From positions 1 to 64,000 of the forward strand of contig NZ_RPEM01000004.1 of NCBI RefSeq assembly GCF_004745575.1: a stretch of DNA of 64,000 bases, written 5' to 3'. The notes under the pieces were generated by a model, which did no database searches, was not told the origin of the DNA, and worked only from the letters and a program-made list of their open reading frames with translations. Shown in pieces: positions 37,396 to 55,356 of this stretch (positions within the stretch are counted from its first letter, which is position 1; every line of letters starts with the position of its first letter). The stretch is from Pseudotabrizicola sediminis (lineage in GTDB: Bacteria > Pseudomonadota > Alphaproteobacteria > Rhodobacterales > Rhodobacteraceae). A program made the position numbers and the translations under genes.

Positions 37396-38025
37396 TCAAA
37401 GACGTGCCAGCGTCAGCACATGGCCACCGACCCGCAGGATGCGCCCATTGATCCGGTCGCCAATGGCAAAGGGCGGCACGGCCTGGGTGAACACGGCCAC
37501 AAAGCGATCCCCCTCAACCTCGACACGCATGCCGTAAAAGCCATAGAGTGTGCGACTGACGGCATATTGCGCCTTGAACGCAGCTTCCTTGGCGCAGAAC
37601 ACCGCTTTGGCCTGTGCGCCGGTGATCCCCGACCGTTCCTCGGGCCGCAGGATATCGTCCCACAGGTCTGGCTCCAGTGGGGTGTCTTCCTCCAGATCAA
37701 TCCCGATCCCCCGGCACAGGGCATCCGGCATCACCACCGCCAGGCAGTGCCGCCGGGTGTGGGTGATCGACCCCACCACCCCCGCAGGCCAGACCGGCGC
37801 ACGATCCGCGCCCATTGGTATCGCGTCTGCCGCTGCGCCGATCCCAGCCAAGGCCATCCGCACTGCCGCTCGCCCCGCCGCAAACTCGCGCTGCCGCAGG
37901 GGCACCGCCCCCGGCAAAGCCTCTCCCTGCATCAGCGGACAATCGGCACTCGGGTCGGTCCAGCCGATCCCTGCACCCTCGGGGGCGATTCCCCGCAGCG
38001 CCGCCAGCAAGCCTGTGTCAGGCAT
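37396..38025 (-). CDS. 4'-phosphopantetheinyl transferase (Sfp/EntD-type)
   Basis: The enzyme converts apo carrier proteins to holo form by transferring phosphopantetheine from CoA. The 209-residue product has the PPTase signatures: GSITHTRRHCLAVV, the magnesium-binding GIGIDLEED (D110, E112), and FCAKEAAFKAQ (K146, E147). The N-terminal part REFAAGRAAVRMAL resembles EntD-type enzymes. The start overlaps the NRPS gene by eight bases, which fixes its job: activating the T domain of that NRPS and the ACP of the PKS in the same operon. Longer upstream starts would be a shadow of the NRPS. Confidence 0.92.
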   Translation of the reverse strand: MPDTGLLAALRGIAPEGAGIGWTDPSADCPLMQGEALPGAVPLRQREFAAGRAAVRMALAGIGAAADAIPMGADRAPVWPAGVVGSITHTRRHCLAVVMPDALCRGIGIDLEEDTPLEPDLWDDILRPEERSGITGAQAKAVFCAKEAAFKAQYAVSRTLYGFYGMRVEVEGDRFVAVFTQAVPPFAIGDRINGRILRVGGHVLTLARL

Positions 38026-41000
38026 CCACGCCAGCCCGCCCAGCCCGCATCGCGCGCCTGCGCGCCATGGCATCCGCTCGTGCCCCGGCCTGCCCCGCCA
38101 GCCCTGTGGATTGCGCAACGGCAGCGGGCTTTGACCCGTCATCCAGATGGGCCGCCAATGCCGATAACGTGGGAAAGCGAAAGATATCCGTGATCGACAG
38201 CCTGGTCGCCCCCAGCGCCTCGCGGATTTCGCGATGCGCCTGCACCGCCAGCAAGGAATGCCCGCCCAGCGCAAAGAAGTTGTCCCTGGCCCCGACCTTG
38301 GGCACGCCCAACACCCGCGCCCAGACCGCCGCGATCTGCGCCTCGATATCCGACGCAGGCGCAACAAAGGCCGTCGCCTCCTGCCGAACCCCCGGCTCCG
38401 GCAGCGCTTTGCGGTCCACCTTGCGGTTGGGGGTCAGCGGAAATGCCTCCAGCGTCACGATATGCGCAGGCACCATATGCCCCGGCAAGGCCAACGCCAA
38501 CGCCGCCCGCAGGCCCGCCTCCTGCGCCACCCCGGTCACATAGCCTACCAGCCGCAGATCGCCGGGGCTGTCCTCGCGGGCCGTCACCACGGCCTGGCGC
38601 ACCCCCGGCTGCGCCTCCAGCACCGCCTCGATCTCGCCCAGCTCAATCCGGTAGCCGCGCAACTTGACCTGATTGTCAGTGCGGCCAAGGAAGTCGATCT
38701 TCCCATCCGCCCGCCTGCGCACCAGATCCCCCGTGCGATACATCCGCGCGCCCCATGGACAGGCGCGGTCTGTGGTCACGAACGGGTCGGGCAGAAACCG
38801 CTCTGCCGTCAGATCCGCGCGCTGCCAATAGCCACGCGCAACCCCATCGCCGCCGATCCACAATTCGCCCGCCGTGCCCACCGGCACCGGCTGCTGTGCC
38901 GCGTCCAGCACGTACATCTGCTGATTGGCCAGCGGCGTTCCGATGTTCGAAACACCTTCTGTTGTGGTCACCGCCTCTACCGACGACCAGATCGTCGTTT
39001 CGGTCGGGCCATACATGTTCAGGATGCGCGCCGATGACGCCGCGCGCAGATCCTGCACCAAAGCCCCCGGCAGTGCCTCGCCGCCCACCATCACCGTCTT
39101 CACCCCGGCCAGCGCCAAGCGCGACTCGTCATTCATCGCAATCATCCGTGCCATGCTGGGCGTGCATTGCAGATGCGTGACCTTGTGCCGGATCAGCTGG
39201 GCCGCGATGGAGTAATCGTCCGCCTCCACGCCCTCCCCGGCATTCGCCCGCCGCACCACCTCGGCCAGTGGATACAGCCCTTCCATCACCTGCTCGGGCG
39301 CGATGCCATAGTCGATCAGACAAGCCACCTCGCCCACGCCGATCAGCCTGAGCTGCTCGACCCGCGCCAGCGCATCCTCGACCGTGCCGAACAGGCCCGA
39401 ATCCTCAAAATACCGCTGAAAGGCGAAATCCAGAATTGCTTCATTTTCCTCTGTACTTAGCGACCGCAGGTCGATGTCCATCGGGTTGGTCACACCCTGC
39501 GGCTTCTTGAACGCCGGGAACGCCCAGGCATACTGCTTCACAAGACCGACCGCCGCCGCCAGATAGGCCTTCATCGGTGCCTCGGCCACCCGCCGCACCT
39601 GGGCCCGGTCGCGCCCGACGTAGGAATGAAGCATCAAGGTCACCACCCCCGCGTCCGGGTCATGCCCGGCCTTGGCGCGTGCAGCGCGGTACAGCTTGAT
39701 CTTGCCCGCGACCTCTTCCACCGACTGGCCCAGCAGATGGGTCAGCACATTGGCCCCCATTTCCCCCGCCTCGCGCCAGGTTTCAGGGTTGCCTGCGGTG
39801 GTTACCCACAGCGGCAACTCTCGCGATACCGGGCGGGGCTGGGTCACCACCGGGAACATCGTCCCGTCAGCTTTGGCAAACTCCACCGCCTCACCGCGCC
39901 ACAGGCGCCGCACCTGATCGGCGGCGGCGTACATTGCTAACTTGTTGTTTGGCGGCGTATTTTCGGGGCGCAGCACGAAGTCATCCGGCTGCCAGCCGCT
40001 TGCAATCGCCATCCCTGCGCGCCCGTTGGTCAGGTTGTCGATCACCGCCCATTCCTCGGCAATCCGCGCCGGATGGTGCAGGGGCACCACACAAGACCCG
40101 GCCCGGACGCCGATGTTTTTCGTGACCGCCGCCACCGCCGCGCCCGTCACCGATGGGTTCGGGTATGGCCCGCCGAAGGCATGAAAGTGCCGCTCCGGCG
40201 TCCAGACCGCGACAAAGCCGTGCGTGTCGGCGAACTTCGCGCCCTCCAGCAGCAGTTCGTATTTCTTCGGACCGACACCATCGTCGTTTCCCCAGTAATA
40301 CAATGAAAAATCTATGTTTTTTTCGAATTTGACCCGCCCTGACGACACCAGCGCCCGGTTCTCATCGGACGAGATTACCACCTTGAACCCGCGCGCCAGC
40401 GTCCAGAACAGCTCGAGCACCGATATGTCGAACGACAGTGAGGTGACGGCCAGCCAGATCCCCGGATCGGTGCCGATGCGCTGATCCATGCCGGTGAAGA
40501 AGTTCGCCACGTTGCGATGTTCGACCATCACCCCCTTGGGTCGCCCTGTTGAGCCGGATGTGTAGATCATATAGGCCAGATCGCCCGGCGTGACACCAGA
40601 TGTGGGGTTTGTGTCAGACGCCCCCGCAATCCGCCCGTCGGTATCCAGACACAGCGCACCCACCTGCCCCGGCAGCCCCCCTGCCAGATCGCTGCTGGTC
40701 ACGATCACCGGGCAGGCGGAGTCCTCAATAAAAAGCGATGTTCTTTCAGCGGGATAGGTCGGGTCCATCGGCACATAAGCCCCCCCGGCTTTCAGAATTG
40801 CCAGCGCGCCCACCAGCATGTCCACGCTGCGGCGAATGTGAAGGCCGACCAGACCCCCCGGCCCCACGCCCATGCCGCGCAGCACGTGCGCCACCCGGTT
40901 GGCGCGGGCATTGAGGGCGGCATAGGTCAGCTCCACCGCTTCAACGCTGATCGCGGGTGCATCCGGTGTTCGCAGAACCTGCGCCTCGAACGCCTGATGC

Positions 41001-42514
41001 ACACAGTATGTTTCGCGTATGGCCAACGTCTGGTTTACGTCATGCAGCACAGCATGACGTTCGTGCGGTGGCAGCATTGGCAGGTTGAAGACCGGGGCCG
41101 CATCTGTGGCCACCCCGGCGACGTAAGTCAGCCGCTCTGCGAGCGCCGCCGCTTCGGCTTTGGAGATGCGTGAGAGGTCAGCATGCAGCGCGCCATCCGA
41201 AAGTGTGATCACAGCGCCGGGCATGGCTGCGCCGTGCAACGACACCGCCACCTGTGGCATGGCCAGACCGGCCAGCGCCGCATCGCGTGTCATCAGGTCG
41301 AGCGGGAACCCCGCTGCGCGTTCGGCCAGCAGGGCCGCCTTTGCCGCACCGACAGTGCCATCCGTCGCAATCCGCACCGGCACCCAGCCGCTGCTATAGC
41401 CCGTCAGCCCCGGTGCTGCCGACAGCGCCACGTCGGGGCTGTCCAGCCCCGACACCCGCGCCAGTGCCACCGCCAGCGTGGCGGCATCCCCCGCCACCGC
41501 CAGCCGCAGCCAGCCGTGACCATCGCCTGAGCCTGCGACCACCAGCGGCGACAGTGCCGCCAGCCGCATCCGCATCGCAGGCTCGAACGGCACCAAAGCT
41601 GCATGCGCCGCCGTCAGCGCATCTGCATCTTCCAGTCGCGTATTGTCCGTCACCGTCGACGGGCACACCGGCAGGCCGCGCGCCTGGCAGGTCAGCCGGT
41701 GCAACCGCACCGCGCCCGTGGCACAGGCCACCACCACCCCTTCGGGTGAGGAAGACAGCACCGCCCCCGGCGCGCCCACGCCAGCCACCACCTCCGCCGC
41801 ACCCACATTCAGCACCCCGAATGCCCCGGCAATCTTTGCCGTGGTCAGCGGGTTCCAGGTGCGGCCATGATCCAGCGCCCGCACCATGCCCGCGACCGCT
41901 TCGGCGGGCTGCGAAAAGTCCAGCCGCCCGAAGGCTGCTGGTCGGTCGGCGCGGGCGAAGACCTGCCGTTGCGCAAAATCCTGCGGCACCGGGCGCAGGC
42001 CGGTTTCCATCTGCGTCATCACGGCGGGAAAACTCTCTACCCCCGCTTCGAAGCAGCGGGTGTTCAGGGTCAGCGCGGTCTCTCCCGCAGGCACGTCAAA
42101 CAGCCGTTGCTCCAGAATGTCGCCCTCATCGACGCCATCGGTCATCAGATGCCAAGTGATGCCATGCCGCGATTCCCCGGCCAGCAGCGCCCAGACCGGC
42201 GCGTTCAGCCCGGCATAGCGCGGCAACAGGCCGTCGTGAAAGTTCACCGCGCCGCGCGTGGCCAAGGCCCGCACGTCTGCAGGCACCAGCGACAGGTTGG
42301 CCACCGACAGCAGCCAGTCGCAGGCCACGCCTGCCAGCCGATCGGTCAGCCCCGCGCCCGGCAGTTCAACCCGCACCCCCTGCGCCAAGGCCCAGGTCCG
42401 CACGCGCGTGTCCCGCGTGACCACCGCCGCCAGCCGGTGCCCGCGCGCCAGCCATGCGGTACCGCAGGCCTGCGTCAGGCTTTCGTTGCCGATCAGAAGC
42501 GCTGTCAGACCCAT
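38018..42514 (-). CDS. NRPS: formyltransferase - degenerate C - A (with inserted luciferase-like monooxygenase) - T
   Basis: 1498 residues. Residues 1-280 form a methionyl-tRNA-formyltransferase-like domain with catalytic N91, H93 (NFHDGLLPRY) and D129, spaced exactly as in GART/Fmt enzymes. About 300-490 resembles the tail of a condensation domain but has no HHxxxDG. The adenylation domain spans about 505-1371 (YTSGSTGRPKG 651-661, FDISVLELF 695-703, YGPTETT 1168-1174, GYRIELGE 1287-1294, K1365). Between motifs A4 and A5 sits an LLM monooxygenase domain (about 733-1090) of the kind named after MupA/Atu3671. The carrier domain has S1420 in LGGHSLL. The ten specificity positions read D-I-L-Q-M-G-M-I-W-K, near the glycine code. 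No MbtH-like gene is present. The formyltransferase and missing C active site mark an initiation module. Confidence 0.95.
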   Translation of the reverse strand: MGLTALLIGNESLTQACGTAWLARGHRLAAVVTRDTRVRTWALAQGVRVELPGAGLTDRLAGVACDWLLSVANLSLVPADVRALATRGAVNFHDGLLPRYAGLNAPVWALLAGESRHGITWHLMTDGVDEGDILEQRLFDVPAGETALTLNTRCFEAGVESFPAVMTQMETGLRPVPQDFAQRQVFARADRPAAFGRLDFSQPAEAVAGMVRALDHGRTWNPLTTAKIAGAFGVLNVGAAEVVAGVGAPGAVLSSSPEGVVVACATGAVRLHRLTCQARGLPVCPSTVTDNTRLEDADALTAAHAALVPFEPAMRMRLAALSPLVVAGSGDGHGWLRLAVAGDAATLAVALARVSGLDSPDVALSAAPGLTGYSSGWVPVRIATDGTVGAAKAALLAERAAGFPLDLMTRDAALAGLAMPQVAVSLHGAAMPGAVITLSDGALHADLSRISKAEAAALAERLTYVAGVATDAAPVFNLPMLPPHERHAVLHDVNQTLAIRETYCVHQAFEAQVLRTPDAPAISVEAVELTYAALNARANRVAHVLRGMGVGPGGLVGLHIRRSVDMLVGALAILKAGGAYVPMDPTYPAERTSLFIEDSACPVIVTSSDLAGGLPGQVGALCLDTDGRIAGASDTNPTSGVTPGDLAYMIYTSGSTGRPKGVMVEHRNVANFFTGMDQRIGTDPGIWLAVTSLSFDISVLELFWTLARGFKVVISSDENRALVSSGRVKFEKNIDFSLYYWGNDDGVGPKKYELLLEGAKFADTHGFVAVWTPERHFHAFGGPYPNPSVTGAAVAAVTKNIGVRAGSCVVPLHHPARIAEEWAVIDNLTNGRAGMAIASGWQPDDFVLRPENTPPNNKLAMYAAADQVRRLWRGEAVEFAKADGTMFPVVTQPRPVSRELPLWVTTAGNPETWREAGEMGANVLTHLLGQSVEEVAGKIKLYRAARAKAGHDPDAGVVTLMLHSYVGRDRAQVRRVAEAPMKAYLAAAVGLVKQYAWAFPAFKKPQGVTNPMDIDLRSLSTEENEAILDFAFQRYFEDSGLFGTVEDALARVEQLRLIGVGEVACLIDYGIAPEQVMEGLYPLAEVVRRANAGEGVEADDYSIAAQLIRHKVTHLQCTPSMARMIAMNDESRLALAGVKTVMVGGEALPGALVQDLRAASSARILNMYGPTETTIWSSVEAVTTTEGVSNIGTPLANQQMYVLDAAQQPVPVGTAGELWIGGDGVARGYWQRADLTAERFLPDPFVTTDRACPWGARMYRTGDLVRRRADGKIDFLGRTDNQVKLRGYRIELGEIEAVLEAQPGVRQAVVTAREDSPGDLRLVGYVTGVAQEAGLRAALALALPGHMVPAHIVTLEAFPLTPNRKVDRKALPEPGVRQEATAFVAPASDIEAQIAAVWARVLGVPKVGARDNFFALGGHSLLAVQAHREIREALGATRLSITDIFRFPTLSALAAHLDDGSKPAAVAQSTGLAGQAGARADAMARRRAMRAGRAGVDA

Positions 42515-42541: not shown

Positions 42542-43516
42542 TTATTTCGCCTCAGGCCGGAAGCCGGACACCGCCCAGCGCACCGCATGGGCCGACATAT
42601 CCCAAAGGTAATGCGCCGGGTCGATCACCTGCCTGCGCTGGATCAACGCCCGCACCCGCCAGATCAGCCCGCCCGCCACATGCGCCGCTGTCGCGGCCAG
42701 TGCATAGGCGCGGCCATGCGACCGAGTGTAATAATACATCCGCGAGTCGAGCCAGAACCGCGGGATGCGCTGCCAGCCCTTCATGCCGGTGGACACCGAC
42801 CCGATATGCTCGACCCGGCTTTCCAGCACGTAATCGGTAGGGAAGCCTGCACGGGCGGCGCGCAGGCACAGTTCGGTTTCCTCGAAATACAGGAAAAACG
42901 TCTCGTCGAACAGGCCGATCCGGTCCAGCACCGATTGCCGCATCATCAGGCTGGCCCCGGCCAGCCAATCCACCCGCCCGGTTGCCACCGGCAAGGGCGG
43001 TGCGACGACTGATCTGCGCAGCAGGCGGGTGATCGGGCCAAAGCGGGCGGCCTGTTCAAATTCCCCCGCAATCGACGGAAAGCGGAAGGCGCTGTGATGC
43101 GGCGTGCCATCCGTCCCGTGAATATGACTGCCCGCAAACCCGGTGCCCGGATGCGACTCCAGATGCGCCAGCAGCGCGCGGATGGCATCGGGGGCGGGAA
43201 AGGCATCAGAGTTCAGCAGATACACATAATCGGGCCGCTGTCCGCCCGGCAGTCCGGCCCGGATGCCAAAGTTGTTGCCCGCGCCAAAGCCGCCGTTGCG
43301 CCCCGATTGCAGCACCCGCACGCCATGCGGGCCCTTGTCCCAGCCGCGGGCTGCGACCGCGGCTGTCATCTGCTCAAAGCTGCCATCGCCCGAGGCGTTG
43401 TCGACAATCACCACCGCGCCATCGATGCCCTGCATCGCCGCCAGCGCGGCTGTCGCGGATCGTAGGGTCATCTCTGCCGTCCGCCAGTTCAGGATCACTG
43501 TCAGCACGCTGGCCAT
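42542..43516 (-). CDS. GT2-family glycosyltransferase (rhamnosyltransferase-like)
   Basis: The 324-residue GT-A enzyme starts SVLTVILNWRTAEMTLRSATAAL. The nucleotide-sugar segment is VVIVDNASGDGSFEQM, followed by GGFGAGNNFGI, the metal-binding-like YLLNSDAFPAPDAI, and the acceptor/catalytic ASLMMRQSVLDRIGLFDETFFLYFEETELCLRA, typical of WbbL/dTDP-rhamnosyltransferase-like proteins. It lies one base after the PKS stop and 27 bases before the NRPS start. That embedding strongly suggests it acts on, or together with, the NRPS/PKS product. The sugar donor is unknown. Confidence 0.92.
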   Translation of the reverse strand: MASVLTVILNWRTAEMTLRSATAALAAMQGIDGAVVIVDNASGDGSFEQMTAAVAARGWDKGPHGVRVLQSGRNGGFGAGNNFGIRAGLPGGQRPDYVYLLNSDAFPAPDAIRALLAHLESHPGTGFAGSHIHGTDGTPHHSAFRFPSIAGEFEQAARFGPITRLLRRSVVAPPLPVATGRVDWLAGASLMMRQSVLDRIGLFDETFFLYFEETELCLRAARAGFPTDYVLESRVEHIGSVSTGMKGWQRIPRFWLDSRMYYYTRSHGRAYALAATAAHVAGGLIWRVRALIQRRQVIDPAHYLWDMSAHAVRWAVSGFRPEAK

Positions 43517-43517
43517 C

Positions 43518-46500
43518 TTATTCCGCCGCCTGTTCCAGCTGCCGGGGTGCCGGTCCGTCAACGCCTTCGATCACTGCCCGCATCCGTGCCGACAGCACCC
43601 GCACGTTGGGTTCCAGCACCATGGAGTCGTGATCGCCCGGCACCTCAATCACCTGCAGCGCCGGGGCGAATTGCGCAAGGTCGTTGTCGGGCATCACGAC
43701 TTCGCGTGCCGCACTGACCCAGCGCCCGCCCGTCACCTGCCAGCGCTTGTCCAGCGGCGGGCGGAACAGCACCACCGCGCCCTGACGCGGGGCCATGGCG
43801 TAGCGTGGCAAGGCGGCGCGGAACGCGGCCTCGATCGCGGCATTGTGGAACGCGCCTTCATCGGTGGACGCGGCCCCCTGCGCCGCCTTCCACGCCTGCT
43901 TTTCGCGCCACCAGCGGGCGAAGAAGCCGGGGCCTTCGGCGCGCAACTCGGCCGCGCGGATCATCAGCTTGTCGGCCTTGGACAGCGTTGGCCGCAGCGG
44001 CACGGGCGTGTCGAGCAGCACCACCAGCGGCACCTGTTCCCCCGCGGCCTCCAGCTGGCGGGCGATTTCCCAGGCGATCAGGCCGCCCCCCGAGAAGCCG
44101 CCCAGCAGATAAGGGCCATGCGACTGCACCTGCCGCATCTCGGCGATGTAGTCGCGGGCGGCGTCGGCGAAATCGTCATGCGGTCGCGCATCGCCATACA
44201 GCCCGCGCGCCTGCAGGCCGTAAAAGGGACGGTCGCCGCCCAGAAGCTGCGCCAGATGGCGCAGGTTCAGCACGTTGCCGAACATGCCGGCGACGAGGAA
44301 GAACGGCGTCTTCGCCCCGCCCTCACCGCGCCCTTCGCCTTTGTGCATCGGCACGATATGGGTGAACCGGCGCGGGGCGGGTTTGGCGGTGGGCGTGGCG
44401 TCGCGGGTGTCCTGCGGGCCGATCTGCGCTTCGATCAGGGCGGCGCAGGCAGCAATCGTCGGGGCCTCGAACAGCACCGAGATCGGGAAATCAGTGCGAT
44501 AGGCCTTCTTGACCATGGCAAACAGCCGCACCGCGATCAGGCTGTGGCCGCCGAGGTCGAAGAAGCTGTCGTTGACCCCCACTTGGGCCACGCCGAGCAG
44601 ATCCTGCCAGAAACCCACCAGCGTGCGTTCGATGTCGTTGCGCGGTTCGACATAATCGCTGTCCAGATCGGGACGTTCAAAGCTGGTGGCCGCACCGCGC
44701 GCGGCGTCGACCACATCCGCTGCGCGGATCAGCGCCGGCAGGTCGAGGGACGAGACGATGATCTGGCTGTGCCCCAGCGCCACGGCGCGGGCAAAGGCCT
44801 CGGCCCCCTCGCTCGGGCGGATGCCTTGCGAAAAGGCGTGCAGCAGGCGGTCTTCGGCGGCGGAGGTGGCGCGGGGTTGCGGTGCGTCAAATTCCAGGCT
44901 GCGCGGATTGGGGGCGGTGAGGGTAAGGCCGCCGTCCAGCCGGTGAATGGTGAAGCCCTGCACTTCGATGCAGACCTCGCCTTCGGGGGTCGCCAGCGTG
45001 ATGTCGAACACGGCGGTGCCGCGCGCGGCGGTGTTGAGGGTGTTGGGGGCGGCGGTGCGCATGTGGCTGATGATGCGGGCGGGCAGCGGGCGATAGACCC
45101 TGACACGCGCGTAAGACACCGGCACCCAGAGGTGATCAGGCCGGTAGCCGTCGATCAGCCCCATGGCCCAGCCGGTCGCCAGATCCGTCAGCGCCGGATG
45201 AATGCGCCAGCCCTCATCCGGCTCATGGCGGTACGCCTCTGGCAGGGCCAGATGCGCCAGCCCTTCACCGGCACCGATCGCGCGGGAGCGCAGCACGCGC
45301 CAGCGGGCGCCGAAGTTCAGATGCGCCTCTTGCGGGCTGCGCAGGCCATCGCCGGTTTCCGGCTGTGGCAATCGGGCCGCTATGGCGGCCACGTCGATGC
45401 GCGGGGCAACCTCTGCCAAGGGCAGGAGGCGGGCAGAGGCATGGTGCAGCCAGCCGGTGCGGCCCTTGGCCATCAGGCCGGAGTGCAGGTCGAACCCGTA
45501 ACCCTCATCGCTGCGCTGCAGGCGGGCCCGCACCGGGCGCGGTGCATTGGCTATATCCAGCGCGCGGAAAAAGGTCAGGTCGCGGATTTCAAAGGCGTCG
45601 GTTTCGCCCTGTGCGGCCCATGCCTCGGCCATCACCTCCAGATACCCCGTGCCGGGGATCAGGGCGGTGCCATCCCTGGTGCGGTGCTGATCCACGACCC
45701 AGCGGTCGGTAGCGTAGCTGGCATGGAAGACGCGGTTGCCATGGCGGTCGAACCCGGCCTCGTCCAGCATCTGCGCGTTGATGGGCTGGCGTGGAGACTC
45801 TGGCCGCCCGGTACGGTCGGCCAGCGCTTCTGCCGCCATGCCAACGCCCTGCCAGATGCCCCAGTTCAGCGCGACCACACGGGTTTTGCCGCCCGCGCGA
45901 TGCTTGGCATAGGCGTTGAGGTATTCGTTCGCCGCCACATAGTCGATCTGCCCCGCAGGGCCGGTCACGGTGGAGGTTGAGGAGAACAGCACCAGAAGCG
46001 CGATGGAGCCATCGGGGAACAACCGCTCCAGCACCTGCGTGCCGTGCAGTTTGGGGGCAAACACCTCTTCCACCTCGGCCGGGGATTTGGTCAGCAACGG
46101 GCCGTCATCGACCACGCCCGCCGCGTGGATCACCGCATGCACCGGGCCAAAGCGCGCCTCACCCGCCACCTTTGCCGCCTGCATCTCGTCCACATTGGCC
46201 ACATCTGCGCGGGCGACCAGCACCTGCCCGCCCAGACCTTCCAGCCGTTGCAGGGCCAGAATGCGGCGCGCCAACGGGTCACCCGGGGACGCCTTGGCGA
46301 GAACTGCGGGCCAGCCCGTCCGGTCGGGCAATGCGCGCCGCGCGATCAGGGTGATCCTGACGCCAAAGCGGCGGATCAGGTCTTCGGCCACGGTCAGCCC
46401 GATGCCGCCGAAGCCACCGGTGATCAGGACATGGGCACCCTTTGGCAGGTCAAACCCGCCGCGCGGCAAGGCCACGGCCCTGAGGCCCGAGGCGTAGCGC

Positions 46501-49500
46501 CGCCCCTTGCGCCATGCGGCGATGCTGGGCTGATCTGACAGCACCTCTTCCAGCACGACGTCCGCCGCATCGCCCGGCCCAAGGTCCAGCAGGCCCACCA
46601 GCACCCCCGGCACTTCACGCGGGATCACGCGCGCCGGGCCCAGCACCATGGCCTTTTCCGGGTAGGCAATGGCTTCACCCTTTACCTGTGCTGCACCTGT
46701 GGTCAGCACCGTGAGGCGGATCGGGCGGGGCAGGTTTTCCGCGGCCAGCGCCTGGCCCAGGAACAGCAGCGCATAGAACCCCTGTTCGATATTGCGGTGC
46801 AGGAAACTGGACCCGGGGCGGAAGGTTTCCTTGGCCGTCACCAGCCAGCCATGCACGATGCGGCTGGGGGCCATCCCCCGCGCCACCAGATCGCGGATCA
46901 GGCTGTCATAGCCTTCGCGGCCACGTTCGGGCGACAGGCGGTAATCGCCAGCTGCGTCGCGGGCAAAGGCATCGCCCGCGCGCACGCGTACCACCCGGTG
47001 CCCTGCTTGCGCCAGCCTGTCGGCTACGGTGGCGCACAGACCGGTGTCATCGGTGAAGATCAGCCAGGTTTCGGGCGCTGCTTCGGGCAGATCATCCAGA
47101 TCAAAACCTGCGGCCATGGGGCGCCAGTGCGGCATCCAGCCCCACTGCGTCAGGTCGTCAATGCGGGCGGGCGGGGCCTCGGCCTGTGTGTGCTGGGTTT
47201 CGGCGGGGGCGATGAAATAGGGTTTGCGCTGGAAGGCATATGTCGGCAGCGGCACGCGCTGGCGGGGCGCGTCGCCCCAGATCTGCCCCCAGTCGACCGC
47301 CACGCCGCAGGCCCAGAGCCGCGCCAGCGTGACCATGTGCCAGGCGTCATCCGGCATGGCCTGATCGGGGTGCCGCAGGGCCGGGATCACCTGACCAGAG
47401 GCTATGCCATTGGCCTGCGCCAGCGACGACAGCGCGCGGCCGGGCCCCATTTCCATGTACACCCGCCTGGGTTCGGCCATCAGCGTTGCCATGCAGGCCC
47501 GAAAATTTACCGTGCCGCGCAGGTGCTGCACCCAGTAGTCCGGGTCGGTTGCCTGCGCTGCTTTGAGTTCTGTGCCGGTGCGGTTGGAGATGATCGGCAA
47601 GGTCGGGGGCGACAGCGGGATGGAGCGGAGGTAATCGCCGAACCGCGCAAGGATCGGTTCCAGCATCGCGGAATGCGCGGCGATGTCGATGGCGATGCGC
47701 TGGGTTTCCACGCCCTCGGCAACCAGTTTCGCCGCGAGGTCAGCGAGGGCGCTGTCGGGGCCGGATACGACACAGAGATCGGGCGCATTCACCGAGGCGA
47801 TGTCGAGCGGGGCCGTGGCATCTTGAATATTATTGCCAAGATGAACGCCAAGGCGATCAAGGGCCGCGCGCAGGCCGGGTTCGGACAGCGGCACGGACAG
47901 CATGCCGCCCGGCGCGATGGTGTCGAACAGCGTGCCCCGCAGGTGGACGAGGCCGATGCAGTCGTCAAAGCTCATCACGCCCGCAAGGGCAGCGGCAGTG
48001 TTTTCGCCCATCGAATGGCCGATGAGGGCGGTGGGGGTGATGCCCCAGCTTTGGAACAGTTTGGCCAGTGCGTATTCGGTGATCATGATCAGCGGCAGCT
48101 GGACCGAGGGGCGTTTCAGTGCCTCGGTTGCGGCGGTTTCGGCCCCCGGTGCGGGCAGCCACAGGGCGCGGATGTTGTAGTCGAGTTTGGGCTCCAGCAC
48201 CGCGAGGCCACGATCCATCCAGTCGGCAAAGACCGGTTCGGTCTCGTACAGGTCGCGCGCCATTCCGGCATATTGCGCGCCGCCGCCGGGGAACATGAAG
48301 ATCACCTCCGGGTCGTCGCCCAGATGGTCGTGGGTGAAGACGCGGCGGGGGTCGTTGCTTTCGAGCAGGTCTGCCGCCTCGGCGTGGCTGCCCGCCACCA
48401 GCACCCGGCGTTTGTCAAAGGCGCGGCGGCCTTCCTTGAGGGTGAAGGCCACATCGGCCAGGGGCTGGTCGGGGTTTGCACGAAGATGCGCGGCCAGCCG
48501 GGTGGCGGCGTCATCCAGCGCGGCTTTGCTGCGGGCCGAGAGGACGAGCGGCTGGAAGGGCCAGTCGCTTTGCGCCGGTGCGGGGCGCAGCGGTGCCTGT
48601 TCCAGCACCGCATGGGCATTGGTGCCGCCGACGCCAAGGCTGTTCACGCCTGCACGCAGCACAGGTGCGGTCCACGCGGTCAGCCTGTCGTTCACGCGGA
48701 AGGGTGAGGTTTCGAAATCAATCGCCGGGTTCGGGGCGTCATAGCCGAGGCTGGGCGGCAGTTCGCGGTGGTGCAGGGCGAGGGCCACCTTGATCAGGCT
48801 GGCCACGCCCGCAGCCGTATCCAGATGGCCGATGTTGGTTTTCACAGAGCCGATGCGGCAGGTGCCCACCGCATCGGTGGTTTCACGGAAGGCGGCGGTC
48901 AGGGCCGCCACCTCGATCGGGTCGCCCAGATAGGTGCCGGTGCCGTGGCATTCGACATAGCTGACGGTGTCAGCCGTGACCCCGGCCACCGCCTGCGCCT
49001 CGGCGATGCAGCGGGCCTGACCGTCGACCGAAGGCGCGAGGTAGCCCGCCTTGGCCGCGCCATCATTGTTGACCGCCGAGCCCTTGATGATGGCCCAGAT
49101 GTGATCGCCATCGCGCAGCGCATCGACCGCGCGGCGCAGCACCACGCAGCCCGCGCCCGAGCCGAACACGGTGCCCTGCGCGCGGTGGTCAAAGGCATGG
49201 CAATGACCGTCGGGCGACAAGATCTCGCCCTCGGTATACAGATAGCCGCGCGCATGGGGCAGCTCGATGGTGACGCCGCCCGCCAGCGCCATGTCGCATT
49301 CGCCGTTCAGCAGGGCCTGTGCCGCGTAATGCACCGCAACAAGGCTGGTCGAACAGGCGGTCTGCACATTGATGCTTGGCCCTTTCAGATCAAGGATATG
49401 GCTGACGCGGGTGGCCAGAAAATCCTTGTCATTGCCGGTGTGGCGCAGCAGGAACATGCCGGTCTGATCGACCAGATCGCGGTGCGAGCAGAGGTTGAAA

Positions 49501-49910
49501 TAGAAATATGACCCCATGCCGCAGCCTGCCCAGACCCCGATGGGGCCGGGGAAGTTTTCCGGCGGATGGCCCGCATTTTCCAGTGCTTCCCAGGCGACCT
49601 CCAGAAACTGGCGGTGCTGGGGGTCGAGGATCGCGGCCTCTTTGGGGGAAAAGCCGAAGAACTCGGCGTCGAAGTGGTCGAACCTGTCCAGCACAGCCGC
49701 CGATGGCACGTAGTTCGGTTGTGCCATCCTGGCCGGAGATTCCCCGGCCGCCAGCAGATCGGCCTCGTCCAGCACCCGGATCGATTCCACCCCGTCCCGA
49801 AGATTGCGCCAATAGGTGCCAATGTCTTCGGCACCCGGCAGATGTGCGGCCATGCCGACGATCGCGATGTCGGTGTCGGACAGGTCGGATGGCAATGGAA
49901 GATCGGGCAT
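43518..49910 (-). CDS. type I polyketide synthase: KS-AT-KR-DH-ACP-TE
   Basis: 2130 residues. KS (about 12-437) has C186 in TACSTS, H322 in CHGTGT and H362 in NIGHLD. AT (about 537-870) has S633 in GHSMGE; the downstream specificity region reads IAAHS, not the usual HAFH or YASH, so malonyl use is likely but not certain. KR (about 925-1365) has GGFGGIG (1165-1171), S1310/S1311 and Y1324-x3-N1328. A DH-like domain follows (about 1390-1660) with H1409...G...P1419 and D1576 in HPALTD. ACP has S1790 in LGGHSL; TE (about 1870-2115) has S1940 in GGFSGG and H2094. The KR-before-DH order is uncommon. Only 11 residues precede the KS, so docking must use a short N terminus. The TE makes this the terminal module, acting after the NRPS. 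Confidence 0.95.
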   Translation of the reverse strand: MPDLPLPSDLSDTDIAIVGMAAHLPGAEDIGTYWRNLRDGVESIRVLDEADLLAAGESPARMAQPNYVPSAAVLDRFDHFDAEFFGFSPKEAAILDPQHRQFLEVAWEALENAGHPPENFPGPIGVWAGCGMGSYFYFNLCSHRDLVDQTGMFLLRHTGNDKDFLATRVSHILDLKGPSINVQTACSTSLVAVHYAAQALLNGECDMALAGGVTIELPHARGYLYTEGEILSPDGHCHAFDHRAQGTVFGSGAGCVVLRRAVDALRDGDHIWAIIKGSAVNNDGAAKAGYLAPSVDGQARCIAEAQAVAGVTADTVSYVECHGTGTYLGDPIEVAALTAAFRETTDAVGTCRIGSVKTNIGHLDTAAGVASLIKVALALHHRELPPSLGYDAPNPAIDFETSPFRVNDRLTAWTAPVLRAGVNSLGVGGTNAHAVLEQAPLRPAPAQSDWPFQPLVLSARSKAALDDAATRLAAHLRANPDQPLADVAFTLKEGRRAFDKRRVLVAGSHAEAADLLESNDPRRVFTHDHLGDDPEVIFMFPGGGAQYAGMARDLYETEPVFADWMDRGLAVLEPKLDYNIRALWLPAPGAETAATEALKRPSVQLPLIMITEYALAKLFQSWGITPTALIGHSMGENTAAALAGVMSFDDCIGLVHLRGTLFDTIAPGGMLSVPLSEPGLRAALDRLGVHLGNNIQDATAPLDIASVNAPDLCVVSGPDSALADLAAKLVAEGVETQRIAIDIAAHSAMLEPILARFGDYLRSIPLSPPTLPIISNRTGTELKAAQATDPDYWVQHLRGTVNFRACMATLMAEPRRVYMEMGPGRALSSLAQANGIASGQVIPALRHPDQAMPDDAWHMVTLARLWACGVAVDWGQIWGDAPRQRVPLPTYAFQRKPYFIAPAETQHTQAEAPPARIDDLTQWGWMPHWRPMAAGFDLDDLPEAAPETWLIFTDDTGLCATVADRLAQAGHRVVRVRAGDAFARDAAGDYRLSPERGREGYDSLIRDLVARGMAPSRIVHGWLVTAKETFRPGSSFLHRNIEQGFYALLFLGQALAAENLPRPIRLTVLTTGAAQVKGEAIAYPEKAMVLGPARVIPREVPGVLVGLLDLGPGDAADVVLEEVLSDQPSIAAWRKGRRYASGLRAVALPRGGFDLPKGAHVLITGGFGGIGLTVAEDLIRRFGVRITLIARRALPDRTGWPAVLAKASPGDPLARRILALQRLEGLGGQVLVARADVANVDEMQAAKVAGEARFGPVHAVIHAAGVVDDGPLLTKSPAEVEEVFAPKLHGTQVLERLFPDGSIALLVLFSSTSTVTGPAGQIDYVAANEYLNAYAKHRAGGKTRVVALNWGIWQGVGMAAEALADRTGRPESPRQPINAQMLDEAGFDRHGNRVFHASYATDRWVVDQHRTRDGTALIPGTGYLEVMAEAWAAQGETDAFEIRDLTFFRALDIANAPRPVRARLQRSDEGYGFDLHSGLMAKGRTGWLHHASARLLPLAEVAPRIDVAAIAARLPQPETGDGLRSPQEAHLNFGARWRVLRSRAIGAGEGLAHLALPEAYRHEPDEGWRIHPALTDLATGWAMGLIDGYRPDHLWVPVSYARVRVYRPLPARIISHMRTAAPNTLNTAARGTAVFDITLATPEGEVCIEVQGFTIHRLDGGLTLTAPNPRSLEFDAPQPRATSAAEDRLLHAFSQGIRPSEGAEAFARAVALGHSQIIVSSLDLPALIRAADVVDAARGAATSFERPDLDSDYVEPRNDIERTLVGFWQDLLGVAQVGVNDSFFDLGGHSLIAVRLFAMVKKAYRTDFPISVLFEAPTIAACAALIEAQIGPQDTRDATPTAKPAPRRFTHIVPMHKGEGRGEGGAKTPFFLVAGMFGNVLNLRHLAQLLGGDRPFYGLQARGLYGDARPHDDFADAARDYIAEMRQVQSHGPYLLGGFSGGGLIAWEIARQLEAAGEQVPLVVLLDTPVPLRPTLSKADKLMIRAAELRAEGPGFFARWWREKQAWKAAQGAASTDEGAFHNAAIEAAFRAALPRYAMAPRQGAVVLFRPPLDKRWQVTGGRWVSAAREVVMPDNDLAQFAPALQVIEVPGDHDSMVLEPNVRVLSARMRAVIEGVDGPAPRQLEQAAE

Positions 49911-49987: not shown

Positions 49988-51280
49988 TCAGCCCGGACCG
50001 AAGGGGGCGGGTTTTGGCCGGTCGGGGGTCATGACCCAGCGATAGATGTCAAGGATCTGCGCGGCCTTGCGGTCCCATGTGAACAGCGCCTGCACCCGGG
50101 CCAGTGCGGCCTGACCCTTTTGCGCCACCTCGTCCGGATGGTCAACGCAATGGGCCAGCCGTGCGGCCAGCCCGGCAATCACCCCTGCGCGCCCGGTGAT
50201 CGGGACTTTCCATCCGGTCGCATCGGTGACCAGTTCGGTGGGGCCTGCATAATCGACCACGATGGGGGCAAGGCCCAGCGCCATTGCCTCCAGCACCACA
50301 CCGCCGCCGAACTCGCGGATCGACGGAAAGGCCAGCAGCTGACAGCGCGCCGCGATGTGCTGCACCTGCGCGTGATCCTGCCAGCCGTGAAAGACAACCG
50401 CCGCGCCAAATTCGGCGGCCTGGGCGCGCAGGGCGGGCATCTGGTCGCCATCGCCGATGATATCCAGCGCCAGCCTGCCGCTGCGCAGCAGGGGGGCGGC
50501 GGCACTGATCAGCATATCGACGCCTTTGAGCGGCACCAGACGCCCGATGAAGCAGGCGCGCATCGGCCCCGGGCCGTTGTGGCGGGCAAGGGTATTGAAC
50601 CGCGCCGGGTCCACCGCGTTTTCGGGCAGATAAATCACCCGGCCGTGATGCGCCGCTGGAATCTCACGCAGCGTCTGCCGTGATCCGGCCAGAATGGCAT
50701 CGGCGCGCAGGGTGCCCTGCCGCCCCGGCAATGCCCGGTAAAGCCCACGCACCTGCGACAGCCATTCGCGCTCGCGCGCCATCTCGGCCTGAAACCCCTT
50801 GGGCCAGGGCACGCCGCCGTTGATCGGCCCCAGCACGAAGGGCACGCCCGCGCGGCGGCATTTCGCGGCAATGGGGCTTTGCTGCACCGGGGAAAGTGGC
50901 GTGATCCGGTGCACCACATCATAGCGCCCGGCGCAGATCTCTTTTCCAAAGCGCTGCCACACCAGATGTTCAAAATATGGATAGCTGATCGTGGCCACCG
51001 CCTGCTGAATCGTCCAGCCGCCGCGCCCGCCGGTCAGGAAGGTGCCCAGCTTCCACAAGGGCCGCGCGAGGGCTTCGGAATCGATGGCGGTAAAGTCCAC
51101 CCCTTCCACCAGCCCGGCGCGCAGGATGGCGTCGCGGTTGCGCACCTGTGTCACCAGATGCACATCGGCCACCCGGGCCAATGCCCGCGCCAAAGACCAG
51201 CCGACCAGCGGCACCGACACCCAGTCCGGGTTCGCCGCCTCGGCCAGCAACAGCACGCGCGGGCGGAGTCCGGCGGTCAT
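49988..51280 (-). CDS. GT4-family glycosyltransferase
   Basis: A 430-residue GT-B enzyme. The N-terminal half starts RVLLLAEAANPDWVSVPLVGWSLARAL. The C-terminal half has FIGRLVPLKGVDMLISA, LDIIGDGDQMPALRA and the donor-binding EFGGGVVLEAMALGLAPIVVDYAGPTEL, containing the E-x7-E motif. Its ATG overlaps the stop of the polymerase/ligase gene (ATGA), and it ends about 77 bases before the PKS start. It therefore links polysaccharide genes and the PKS in one run. Sugar and acceptor are unknown. Confidence 0.92.
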   Translation of the reverse strand: MTAGLRPRVLLLAEAANPDWVSVPLVGWSLARALARVADVHLVTQVRNRDAILRAGLVEGVDFTAIDSEALARPLWKLGTFLTGGRGGWTIQQAVATISYPYFEHLVWQRFGKEICAGRYDVVHRITPLSPVQQSPIAAKCRRAGVPFVLGPINGGVPWPKGFQAEMAREREWLSQVRGLYRALPGRQGTLRADAILAGSRQTLREIPAAHHGRVIYLPENAVDPARFNTLARHNGPGPMRACFIGRLVPLKGVDMLISAAAPLLRSGRLALDIIGDGDQMPALRAQAAEFGAAVVFHGWQDHAQVQHIAARCQLLAFPSIREFGGGVVLEAMALGLAPIVVDYAGPTELVTDATGWKVPITGRAGVIAGLAARLAHCVDHPDEVAQKGQAALARVQALFTWDRKAAQILDIYRWVMTPDRPKPAPFGPG

Positions 51281-52686
51281 ATCACCGTCCGCCCGGGCGG
51301 CAGGGCGTGGCCCATCGCCTGACGGCGCGCCACCTTCCACGCGCTGCGCAGCGTCTCGGCATGGCCCAGCACCGCGCCTGCCATCAGCCAGGTAAACGGG
51401 ATCAGCGTGTCATTGGGCAGCAGATCCACCAGATTGACCGCCAGCAGAAGCACCACCGCAGCGGCAAAGGGCGACAACAGTGCGGCAGGCTGGCGCAACG
51501 CCTCGCGCGCCATCAGGCCGACGGGCAGGGCCAGCAGGCCAAATTCCGCAAGGTAACCCGCCCAACCGAAGGTGCCCAGGGTAATGATCCAGCCGCCATC
51601 GGCGATCACGTTGATCTGCCCGCTGACCGGGTCATGCAGGAACCCGCGCCCGTAAAGGCCCCAGCCAAACCAAGGTCGTTCGGCCGCACGGTTCAGGAGC
51701 AGCTCTTCGTTGGTGATCCGGAACGCCAGCGATGCCCCGCGTTCCGCGTTCAGCCCGGTGGCAAAGGTCAGGATATCCTGCACCGGCACCAGATGCAGCC
51801 CGCGCAGCAGCGGATAGGTGATCACCACCGCAACCATCAGCCCGGCGAACAGAATCTGCAACCGGCGCGGCACGATCAGCACCAGCGGGGCCAGCAGCAG
51901 CGCATAGACAACCGGCCCGGCGCTGCGGCAAAGCAACAGCACCACAAACAGATAGACCGCTGCCAGCAAGGCCCCGGGCCGTGACGTGGCAGGCCCCACC
52001 CGCAGCAGCGTCACGGCCGCGACGAAACACATCATCGCAAAGAACGCGACCCACAGCCCGTGCGGCATGAAGACAAAGGGCCGGAAGCCGCCAAACCGGA
52101 TCGCCTGACTGAAATCATGCTGGAAATAGCCATAGATCCGCAGGTTCAGCTGTGGCGACATCCGCGCCTCATAGAGCATCGGCAGCGAATAGATCAGCCC
52201 GGCGATCACCAGCGCCACCACGATGGCGCGCATCGCCTGTTCGCTTGCCAGATACCGGCGCGCCAGAAAGAACGGCACCAGCGCAATCGCCTGATTGGCC
52301 ACAACCGCCACACTGTCATAGATCCGCAGCGCCTGCAGCCGGGACGCCTGAAACCAGATCTCGTCGCTGTTGGTCAGCACCGTGGCAAACGGGCTGAGGA
52401 GATACAGCACGATCAACCCGCGCCCGATACGCGATGCGGGCAAAACACCGACCCTGTGTCGCAGCAAAAACAGCACGGCCGCCAGCGCCGCCAGACCGCC
52501 GACCGCATCCTTGTCGATGCCCGGCACCACCGGCAGGTCAAGCGCGATGACCGGCGGCAGCAGCATATAGGCACCCAGCACGGACCAGATCAGCGCGCGT
52601 GCCGGATCCAGTTTCGTGAACAGGATCCACGAAACCACCGGCCACAGGGCCAGCATCAGATAGGCAAGCGTGTTTGCAATGGGCAT
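51277..52686 (-). CDS. O-antigen ligase/polymerase-like polytopic membrane protein
   Basis: The 469-residue protein has roughly 10-12 hydrophobic helices and a large periplasmic loop (about 290-390) containing the family-like RPWFGWGLYGRGFLHDP segment, as in Wzy_C proteins that ligate or polymerise polysaccharide on the outer face of the inner membrane. The start at 52686 places the first helix (TLAYLMLALWPVVSWILF) at the N terminus; in-frame codons further upstream encode an unlikely basic leader. It is the first gene of the minus-strand run that continues into the PKS and NRPS. Confidence 0.85.
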   Translation of the reverse strand: MPIANTLAYLMLALWPVVSWILFTKLDPARALIWSVLGAYMLLPPVIALDLPVVPGIDKDAVGGLAALAAVLFLLRHRVGVLPASRIGRGLIVLYLLSPFATVLTNSDEIWFQASRLQALRIYDSVAVVANQAIALVPFFLARRYLASEQAMRAIVVALVIAGLIYSLPMLYEARMSPQLNLRIYGYFQHDFSQAIRFGGFRPFVFMPHGLWVAFFAMMCFVAAVTLLRVGPATSRPGALLAAVYLFVVLLLCRSAGPVVYALLLAPLVLIVPRRLQILFAGLMVAVVITYPLLRGLHLVPVQDILTFATGLNAERGASLAFRITNEELLLNRAAERPWFGWGLYGRGFLHDPVSGQINVIADGGWIITLGTFGWAGYLAEFGLLALPVGLMAREALRQPAALLSPFAAAVVLLLAVNLVDLLPNDTLIPFTWLMAGAVLGHAETLRSAWKVARRQAMGHALPPGRTVI

Positions 52687-52891
52687 CTGTGTCTGGCTGT
52701 CTGTATTCTGCGGGCCGCGATAGCACGGATCGGCCCGACTGTCTTGCCATCGCTTCGCGGCGCGACCGCGCCTTGAATGCGGCGCTGAAAGGGCATGGCG
52801 GGAGACGCGGCGCGGCAGGTGGCCTTGTGTGGCATCATGCTCTATACAGCAAAGCCTTGCAGCCTTTTGCGCTGTGGAAAGGGCAAAGATC

Positions 52892-53494
52892 ATGCTTTGG
52901 GAAATCCGGACGCACATGAAACCGGCGCTGGGGATCATCGACCTGATCCCCAACATCCATCGCACCCCGGCGCTGGCCGCGCTGCGCCGTGCCGTGCTGG
53001 AAGGACGGCCCGCCACGTTCCGCATGTCGGATGAGGACAGGGAACTGGCCTTTCACGACGCCCATGTGCAGCTGACCTCGCCCATCGGCGCGCGTGTGCT
53101 GAAGGTGCTGCATGATGCGGGACATCTGAAGCTGAAGAAACCACCAGCCAAAACCCTGCCCGCGCTGGAGGCCTATATTGCCACCGAACCGGTGTTTCGC
53201 GCCGATGTTGCGCGCATTCTGGCGGCTGAGGAGGCAAAGCGCCTGCGTCTGGCCGACATCATCGCCGATCCGGCCTGTGCCCGGCCGGAAGAGCTTGATC
53301 CCTACCTGATCGACAAGGTGATCTCGTATCACCTTGGCCACGCCGCAACCGGGACGATAGAGATTGCCGGTCTGCCCTGCCACCGCAGCCGCAGCCCCGG
53401 CGACCCCGCAGACGCCGACCGCTACCGCGCCGAAGACCGCATGCTGTGCTGGTGGACCGACAGCAACGGGCAGCGACAGGGCGAGGCCGGATGA
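52892..53494 (+). CDS. protein of unknown function, about 200 residues
   Basis: No family recognised. The product is soluble, mostly helical and charged, without signal peptide. Features are PALGIIDLIPNIHRTPALAAL at the N terminus and a middle segment FHDAHVQLTSPIGARVLKVLHDAGHLKL that could form a helix-turn-helix-like unit. Near the C terminus a CHRSRSPG...CWW segment carries two cysteines. It is divergent from the polysaccharide polymerase gene and convergent with the BLUF gene. Starts at 52892 or 52916 are both possible. Its position invites a regulatory role, but nothing proves one. Confidence 0.65.
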   Translation: MLWEIRTHMKPALGIIDLIPNIHRTPALAALRRAVLEGRPATFRMSDEDRELAFHDAHVQLTSPIGARVLKVLHDAGHLKLKKPPAKTLPALEAYIATEPVFRADVARILAAEEAKRLRLADIIADPACARPEELDPYLIDKVISYHLGHAATGTIEIAGLPCHRSRSPGDPADADRYRAEDRMLCWWTDSNGQRQGEAG

Positions 53495-53528: not shown

Positions 53529-53987
53529 TCAGGTCAGGATCGGCCCGCCATAGCGCATCATGCCGAACCTGAAGCGGTTGTACATCTGACGGGTCAAGGC
53601 CAGGGCGACGGGCTCGTTTGCCGCGCTCCCCCCGGCCAGGCGCAGCAACCGGGTCAGACAGTCTTGCGCCGGACCTTTGTAACCATACAGCGGGTCTGGC
53701 CCGGCATATCCCATGGCCCAGTGCGAAAACACCCGTTCGTCCACCGGCTGGTTCCAAAGCCGCAGCACGCCGACATGGCGGGTGTCGCCAAGAATGCGCA
53801 TGTAGCAGCGTTCAACAGCGCACCTTTCGCCTTCCAGAACCTGAAAGAACGACTGATCGTGGTACAGCATAACCCCAGTGATGCCGTCACGGGTGTTGTT
53901 GCGCACAGACACCTCCAGCAGGTCGGCGAGGCGATCAGGGCAGAGCGGCTCGGGCGCGGCGCTGGTATAGGCAAGGTGATGAAACAT
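53529..53987 (-). CDS. BLUF-domain blue-light photoreceptor (short type)
   Basis: A 152-residue flavin photoreceptor. The key residues match AppA by spacing: Y7 (LAYTS), N31, Q49 (FFQVLEG) and W90 (FSHWAMG). Also conserved are GITGVMLYHDQSFFQVLEG and YMRILGDTRHVGVLRL. The extra C-terminal ~50 residues are helical and have no output enzyme domain, so it would act by protein contact, as in PixD/BlrB-type proteins. The ATG at 53987 begins the BLUF fold. It lies between the NRPS/PKS-polysaccharide run and the second polysaccharide gene set, so light control of one of them is conceivable. Confidence 0.93.
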   Translation of the reverse strand: MFHHLAYTSAAPEPLCPDRLADLLEVSVRNNTRDGITGVMLYHDQSFFQVLEGERCAVERCYMRILGDTRHVGVLRLWNQPVDERVFSHWAMGYAGPDPLYGYKGPAQDCLTRLLRLAGGSAANEPVALALTRQMYNRFRFGMMRYGGPILT

Positions 53988-54332
53988 TCTGGACCGTGGT
54001 TTTTCTTCTGACTGTCTGGATCTGGCGCAGCGGAGCTGACCAAAAGGGGGCTGATGCAGGCACCATGGATGGCACCACCCGCCGCCCCGGAACGCCCGGG
54101 TGCGGTTTCGGGCCGAATAGGGCATTCCCCCTGAGGATCTTCGCGGCACGATTGGGTGCCTGTTTGCCTGTGCTGGATCTACACGACCCTGTTCTTTGCT
54201 GTTTGCGAGGCGCATGACGGGCTTTTAACCTATGTATAGGATAAATGATTTGATCCAGATCAGTCTGATCCGGCATCCGATGACCCATTTCGGACATCGA
54301 GAATTCTACTGGTCAAGGGCACGGTCAAAGTG

Positions 54333-54480: not shown

Positions 54481-55356
54481 GTGCGGTTCCAGTTTCCTGA
54501 CCAGATCATCACCGTGAACATCCCCGACCAGACCTGCCTGCTGGCAGAGGTCCGGGCAAGGCTGAAGGCTGGGCAGGGGTTCACTCTGGCAACCCTTAAC
54601 CTCGATCATCTGGTGAAACTGCGCGCCTCTGCCAGCTACCGGCAGGTCTATGCGGCGCAGGATCTTATCGTGGCCGATGGCAACCCGATCGTCTGGCTGT
54701 CGCACCTTGCCCGCCGCCCAGTGGCGCTGGTGCCCGGATCCGATCTGCTGCGCCCGCTGTTGCAGATGGCGGCGGAGGACGCGGTTCCGGTGGCATTCTA
54801 CGGGTCCACCCCCGCCGTGCTGGCGCAGGCCGCCCTGAACCTGAATGCCGAGATGCCGGGCCTTCGGGTGGTCTGGTCCGGCGCGCCGGTGATGGGATTT
54901 GATCCCGGCGGACCGGAAGCCTTGGCCGCCCTGACCGCAATGCAGGCCACCGGGGCGCGGCTGTGCATCATCTCGCTGTCCGCCCCCCGGCAGGAAGCTT
55001 TCGCCGCTTTTGGCCGGACCATGGCCCCCGCCATCGGCTTTTGCGGCTTTGGCGCGGGCCTTGACTTTGTGGCAGGCCAGCAGACCCGCGCCCCGCACTG
55101 GATGCGCAAACTGGCGCTGGAATGGTTGTGGCGGGTGATCTCTGCCCCGCGCCGGCTGATCCCGCGCTATCTGGCCTGCATCGCGATCCTGCCCGGTCAG
55201 GTGATTGCCGCCCTGCGGCAGCGCAGGGGCTCAGCTTCACTTGTACTCGATCAGCCCCCGCCGTCGGCCCCGCAGCCGGTTCAGATGAAACCCCAACGCG
55301 CCCTGCGCCTCGGCGAAGCGCCCCACCACGATCAGCAGCCCCCAGGACCAGCCTGA
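54481..55356 (+). CDS. WecG/TagA/CpsF-family glycosyltransferase (GT26)
   Basis: A 291-residue enzyme that adds a sugar (often N-acetylmannosamine/uronate) to a lipid-linked intermediate. Typical motifs: TLNLDHLVKLRASASYRQVYAAQDLIVADGNPIVWLS, VPGSDLLRPLL, VAFYGSTPAVLAQA and the late LSAPRQEAFA, IGFCGFGAGLDFVAG and RAPHWMRKLALEWLWRV. The start codon is GTG. The last ~40 codons run over the end of the convergent GT2 gene, a 120-base overlap, and look like a low-complexity extension beyond the family domain. Confidence 0.9.
   Translation: MRFQFPDQIITVNIPDQTCLLAEVRARLKAGQGFTLATLNLDHLVKLRASASYRQVYAAQDLIVADGNPIVWLSHLARRPVALVPGSDLLRPLLQMAAEDAVPVAFYGSTPAVLAQAALNLNAEMPGLRVVWSGAPVMGFDPGGPEALAALTAMQATGARLCIISLSAPRQEAFAAFGRTMAPAIGFCGFGAGLDFVAGQQTRAPHWMRKLALEWLWRVISAPRRLIPRYLACIAILPGQVIAALRQRRGSASLVLDQPPPSAPQPVQMKPQRALRLGEAPHHDQQPPGPA

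Follow-up and report, generated by a model that had tools for sequence, protein, structure and literature searches.

What does an assembly-line enzyme that combines a formyltransferase with an embedded monooxygenase make, and which pathway does it serve? The window analyzed here (the whole stretch of DNA under study, 64,000 nucleotides from Pseudotabrizicola sediminis) encodes a nonribosomal peptide synthetase (NRPS) in which an N-terminal formyltransferase (F) is followed by an adenylation (A) domain, a luciferase-like monooxygenase (LLM) placed inside that A domain, and a single carrier (T). The preliminary description had identified this domain order and had treated the gene as a rare part of a free natural-product pathway. 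Our analysis kept the enzyme as described, found the gene to be common in its order, and placed it in a polysaccharide setting.

The gene is an open reading frame with an ATG start, its domain order is F-A(N)-LLM-A(C)-T, and the motifs checked with Pfam, NCBIfam and alignment are intact. Its features are as follows.

38018–42514, minus strand: NRPS, 1498 aa
41660–42514, minus strand: F domain, residues 1–285, triad N91/H93/D129 (Pfam PF00551/PF02911; AlphaFold2 with Foldseek to ArnA/Fmt; triad alignment)
41045–41659, minus strand: linker, residues 286–490 (pLDDT mostly about 90)
40340–41002, minus strand: N-terminal half of the A domain, residues 505–725, with A3 and A4 (PF00501; motifs)
39257–40309, minus strand: LLM flavin monooxygenase, residues 736–1086, between A4 and A5 (TIGR04020, 477 bits; PDB 6ket; Foldseek)
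38399–39223, minus strand: remainder of the A domain, residues 1098–1372, A5 to A10, code DILQMGMIWK (Pfam; motifs; code alignment)
38144–38338, minus strand: carrier T, residues 1393–1457, Ser1420 (PF00550; alignment)

All Pfam matches were above their cut-offs (Formyl_trans_N, 57–165; Formyl_trans_C, 195–275; AMP-binding, split into two stretches; Bac_luciferase, 750–1060; AMP-binding_C, 1294–1365; PP-binding, 1393–1457), as was the NCBIfam match of the insert to TIGR04020 (seco_metab_LLM, the MupA/Atu3671 LLM family; cut-off 244 bits). The insert is flanked by SFDISVLELF (694–703) and NMYGPTETTIW (from 1166), which we take to be motifs A4 and A5. We modeled the protein with AlphaFold2, using the window's NRPS and 32 relatives as input, and obtained a confident model of F and the linker (mean pLDDT 93.2) and a fair model of A-LLM-T (mean pLDDT 83.7). 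A Foldseek search with the second model aligned A domains across the insert, with a target TM of 0.87 for 8www, and matched the LLM part to the PuwE OX domain (6ket, target TM 0.90, 45% identity), in agreement with the domain calls. Among PDB sequences the same OX domain is the closest solved LLM, aligned to the insert over 346 residues with an E-value of 7e-100.

The formyltransferase was compared in the same way. The F-linker model matched the ArnA and Fmt formyltransferases, with LgrA absent among the best 50 matches listed. In the PDB sequence comparison LgrA aligned to F, A and T; the F part was weak (17 bits), with the N, H and D residues in register with N91, H93 and D129, which upholds the initial reading of an intact triad. 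The roughly 200-residue linker between F and A, which the preliminary description did not include, is modeled confidently and has no family match. Pfam found no condensation domain in the window's NRPS, and of 39 members one has a Condensation match at the linker, with an E-value of 0.006; the linker is possibly a condensation-domain remnant.

We aligned 68 NRPS proteins: the window's, those of 59 loci of the order Rhodobacterales, and those of 8 plasmid loci. H93 and the carrier serine S1420 occur in all of them and N91 and D129 in all but one, so that 67 have the complete triad; in these 67 F is fused to A-LLM-T. The exception is the protein of Deinococcus (L060), an A-LLM-T protein in which Pfam finds no formyltransferase domain. 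In this Deinococcus actinosclerus locus a separate formyltransferase gene (13785–14699) lies directly upstream of the A-LLM-T gene, a natural split of the fusion.

The A-domain code, with positions placed by eye from GrsA motifs, is the same as the window's in 39 of the 68 proteins and DILQLGMIWK in another 13; the remaining 16 deviate solely at position 299 and/or 330. In the part of a 2025 survey available to us, DILQLGMIWK is the code of all four MOX-bearing glycine A domains (PMC12283262), and the window's code agrees with it at 9 of 10 residues. Because of this near-identity glycine is the best prediction for the substrate, and a likely one. A Nostoc relative that has no F domain carries a code identical to the window's, and thus the unit of a glycine A domain with an LLM insert is distributed more widely than its fusion to F.

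We next describe the genes around the NRPS.

37396–38367, minus strand: 4'-phosphopantetheinyl transferase (PPTase), start probably over-called (PF17837/PF01648)
42542–43561, minus strand: family-2 glycosyltransferase (GT2), between the polyketide synthase (PKS) and NRPS genes (Pfam)
43518–49910, minus strand: PKS module KS-AT-KR-DH-ACP-TE, 2130 aa (Pfam)
49988–51340, minus strand: GT4 glycosyltransferase, EpsH-like (Pfam; NCBIfam NF041879, 470 bits, below the 800-bit cut-off)
51277–53025, minus strand: multi-pass membrane protein, Wzy/O-antigen-ligase-like, start probably over-called (Wzy_C; co-occurrence)
54481–55356, plus strand: WecG/TagA/CpsF glycosyltransferase (PF03808, 145 bits)
55237–56433, minus strand: family-2 glycosyltransferase (PF00535)
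56410–57453, plus strand: polysaccharide tyrosine-autokinase-like protein (TIGR03018, 87 bits, below cut-off)
57457–58794, plus strand: Wzz chain-length determinant (PF02706, above cut-off)
58867–60138, plus strand: GT4 glycosyltransferase (PF13692/PF00534)

The Wzy-like protein has 10 hydrophobic segments and a weak Wzy_C match below the cut-off (E 0.0019). Domain scans of the window's genes from about 29 kb on found neither a Wzx flippase nor a priming sugar transferase. The Wzz gene is the single match in its own 4.04 Mb genome, which, as one search, is a weak control for the background of exopolysaccharide (EPS) genes. Two further genes lie in this region: a BLUF blue-light sensor protein (53529–54215) between the Wzy-like and WecG genes, and a GDSL/SGNH-type acylhydrolase (60923–61585) beside the EPS glycosyltransferases, a candidate for acyl-group handling.

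In the PKS, the residues that we take by motif to be catalytic are kept in 64 or 65 of the 65 sequences compared; the alignment set aside 3 of the 67 relatives found, which were 1900 aa or shorter. Its AT motif is IAAH, unlike the usual malonyl signature, and its second DH motif keeps the Asp and does not have the usual Gln/His.

To describe the setting across the order we used 59 loci with the NRPS gene, hand-chosen, mostly one per genus and roughly 20 kb each (58 from a scan of 390 genomes of the order and one from a comparison within genus and family; L070 is shortened by a contig end). The genes PKS, GT2 and NRPS follow one another in this order on one strand in 57 of the 59 loci. A PKS gene is present in 58, a GT2 gene in 58 and a PPTase gene in 51, and in 53 a Wzz, kinase-like, Wzy-like or WecG gene lies in the stretch of roughly 20 kb. 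The fetched stretches of the other six (L064, L066, L069, L107, L108 and L110) contain no such EPS marker. On annotated plasmids, relatives stand among polysaccharide genes in two Ruegeria records and in Paracoccus, Aminobacter and Deinococcus records (the Rhizobium and Methylobacterium records, which come without a gene table, fall outside this comparison). On the Aminobacter plasmid the PKS is oppositely oriented, the GT2 gene is not between the two, and a TolC-family gene adjoins the PKS. Accordingly, the gene accompanies a PKS and a glycosyltransferase mostly beside EPS genes, and the earlier assignment to a free natural-product pathway is the less likely one.

We compared this neighborhood with co-occurrence in 64 hand-picked, mutually related genomes of the order, 32 NRPS-positive and 32 negative (20 in which TIGR04020 has no match at all and 12 in which its matches stay under the cut-off). 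The Wzy-like gene was found in 31 of the 32 positives (lowest score 349.8 bits; G372 is the one without) and in 10 of the 32 negatives, where all matches were weaker (highest score 315.6 bits). In several positives the Wzy-like gene lies on a different contig from the NRPS, and therefore adjacency alone does not account for the co-occurrence. The same pattern appears within genera: in g67 the gene is present in the positive genome G254 and absent from the negatives G150 and G087, in g56 it is present in the positive G344 and absent from the negative G071, and in g71 it scores 437 bits in the positive G181 versus 265 bits in the negative G149. A full-length PKS orthologue was found in none of the 32 negatives; 7 of them matched only over the KS-AT stretch of other PKSs (E 1e-60 or better).

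The architecture is not rare. TIGR04020 scores above its cut-off in 160 of the 390 Rhodobacterales genomes, hence it is common in the order; the open frames among the matches listed are 1163–1981 aa long. Within the genus, 14 of 15 other genomes contain the NRPS protein, whole or in part; in the other genera of the family it occurs in 5 of 21 genomes sampled, and in the other families of the class in 0 of 24. Scanning named genomes with a profile of the F-linker region, we found at least 570 relatives. Among the best 80 of these nearly all are Rhodobacterales, the other labels being one record assigned only to Alphaproteobacteria and two Hydrogenophaga metagenome-assembled genomes, and 73 have an LLM domain downstream (above 250 bits); in the remaining 7 the stretch stops short of the LLM or inside it. 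The nearest named relative among the matches listed is Pseudotabrizicola alkalilacus, with 81% over the F-linker region. The two Hydrogenophaga-labeled genomes (L167 and L181) have PKS, GT2, NRPS and PPTase matches, by transfer or mis-binning. A second NRPS-type open reading frame, of 1340 aa, is found elsewhere in the window's own genome (G000:C67:238308-240167), and most genomes of its genus also contain similar matches.

Several steps would follow from these domains. F-A(LLM)-T would activate glycine and load it on its own carrier, the F domain would N-formylate the carrier-bound glycine, and the LLM domain, using reduced flavin and oxygen, would hydroxylate its alpha carbon. The PKS would then add one C2 unit, reduce and dehydrate it, and its thioesterase would release a C4 formamido-hydroxy-butenoyl product. 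The likely acyl unit would be 4-formamido-4-hydroxy-butenoyl, which might cyclize or pass to a sugar; with the co-encoded glycosyltransferase, it would become either a non-sugar substituent of a Wzz/Wzy-type polysaccharide or a partner to it. Both the exact product and the acceptor are guesses. The individual steps differ in strength. As judged from sequence, the simplest reading of the starter module predicts formylation and oxidation within one module, as first proposed, and N-formylation quite probably takes place on the carrier. Alpha-hydroxylation is the likelier LLM reaction; N-hydroxylation or C–N cleavage may occur instead. MOX domains are described as cleaving the backbone of the glycine on which they act (PMC12283262), and the PuwE OX domain is assigned a 2-hydroxy group by sequence prediction (PMC4219810).

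We somewhat favor a mechanism whereby the NRPS and PKS form a two-module line dedicated to the EPS pathway. Its basis is the domains, the intact catalytic residues, the gene order, the EPS neighborhood and the co-occurrence. From the setting and the co-occurrence, use of the product in the EPS pathway is probable. Since the NRPS and its partner enzymes sit among polysaccharide genes, the setting, which is the main new result, suggests a decoration or partner of a slime polysaccharide rather than a free antibiotic; neither neighborhood nor co-occurrence is proof that anything is covalently joined to the glycan. Counting against the EPS reading are the 6 of 59 loci without a marker, the second context described below, and the atypical AT and DH motifs. 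Tentatively, these genes would represent a class of NRPS-PKS systems that build a formamido-hydroxy-C4 non-sugar EPS unit and have spread through Rhodobacterales and beyond.

The F-A-LLM-T module also has a second context. In Aliiroseovarius L062 (16498–25746) and in G372 (L064) it is paired with an NRPS/PKS of 3082 aa, and EPS markers are absent nearby; the starter module therefore also works outside an EPS setting. These two loci would agree with a free secondary metabolite, either a glycosylated N-formyl compound or an N-hydroxy-formamide iron ligand, to which the EPS genes are mere neighbors, as would the Nostoc PKS/NRPS cluster, whose A(LLM) lacks an F domain, and the TolC-family gene of the Aminobacter plasmid, which could export a small molecule. 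However, the Wzy-like gene co-occurs with the NRPS also where the two are not adjacent, a glycosyltransferase gene stands between PKS and NRPS in nearly all loci, and the gene tables and domain scans examined, which included no dedicated search for one, contain no TonB receptor as a siderophore would lead one to expect. We consider this explanation unlikely.

Two other explanations keep the polysaccharide and assign the enzymes differently. The operon's glycosyltransferase could add the first sugar to the NRPS-PKS product, on which the polysaccharide then grows, so that the product would serve as an aglycone or anchor and decorate no repeat unit. The position of the glycosyltransferase gene between the PKS and NRPS genes fits such a role, but a C4 product is small for it and Wzz/Wzy polysaccharide routes normally use a lipid carrier, making an anchor distinctly improbable. 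Alternatively, the F domain could formylate an amino sugar and not the carrier-bound amino acid. The locus makes a polysaccharide, the top Foldseek matches include ArnA with other sugar formyltransferases lower down, and LgrA, a weak sequence match, does not appear among the best 50 structural matches listed; yet the matches to ArnA and to methionyl-tRNA formyltransferases are of about equal quality, and F is fused to A-LLM-T in all but one of the aligned proteins. Sugar formylation therefore appears very improbable, and N-formylation of the carrier-bound glycine is the reading we retain.

If the product does serve the EPS pathway, a large share of Rhodobacterales devotes about 12 kb to an assembly line for a surface polysaccharide, and what genome mining would file as an orphan natural-product cluster would encode a modification of the surface glycan that may play a part in attachment or biofilm. 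The operon is also a compact, well-conserved system for testing whether formylation or alpha-oxidation comes first on the carrier.

No characterized product of the F-A(LLM)-T architecture was found in the open-access full text searched, consistent with the preliminary description; a description in a subscription journal is possible. The part of a 2022 review available to us lists only three peptides as formylated by F domains: anabaenopeptilides, linear gramicidin and kolossin A (PMC8949500). The available part of a roseobacter paper contains no product of this architecture (PMC4359443). Other candidates were set aside. Althiomycin, a possible product of an F-A(Mox) starter, was rejected: the word "formyl" is nowhere in the text of its paper, the available part of which proposes that a separate protein, Alb2, oxidizes the amino group (PMC3445576). 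The lyngbyapeptin paper concerns methyltransferase inserts, and "formyl" is absent from its text (PMC10127204). For Phaeobacter inhibens, the available text describes Inhi_3983, an NRPS on the plasmid with the rhamnose operon, and the pair Inhi_1972/1974, all of them at most possible orthologues (PMC4062626).

Compared with known systems, the window's NRPS resembles LgrA of linear gramicidin, a starter module with an N-terminal formyltransferase, an N/H/D triad, and then A and T, as the initial comparison had proposed. Unlike LgrA, which aligns without an LLM insert, it has an F domain with a Formyl_trans_C part followed by the 200-residue folded linker. The second comparison made at the outset, to MtaG, also holds: the glycine A domains of the MtaG type (myxothiazol and relatives) share the DILQ-GMIWK code and a flavin monooxygenase inside the A domain, and MtaG is one of the MOX-interrupted glycine A domains with the insert between A4 and A5. 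The window's NRPS is predicted to differ from them in being a starter module with F and not a terminal amide-forming module, because it has the N-terminal F and its partner PKS has its own thioesterase. As far as the available part of the 2025 survey goes, MOX-interrupted glycine A domains yield a terminal amide via backbone cleavage (PMC12283262). With the PuwE OX domain of puwainaphycin (6ket) the insert shares the same LLM fold. Finally, the locus is like other Wzz/Wzy EPS loci in its Wzz, kinase-like, Wzy-like and WecG genes and its several glycosyltransferases, and it differs from them in that a complete NRPS-PKS, equipped with a PPTase of its own, stands alongside.
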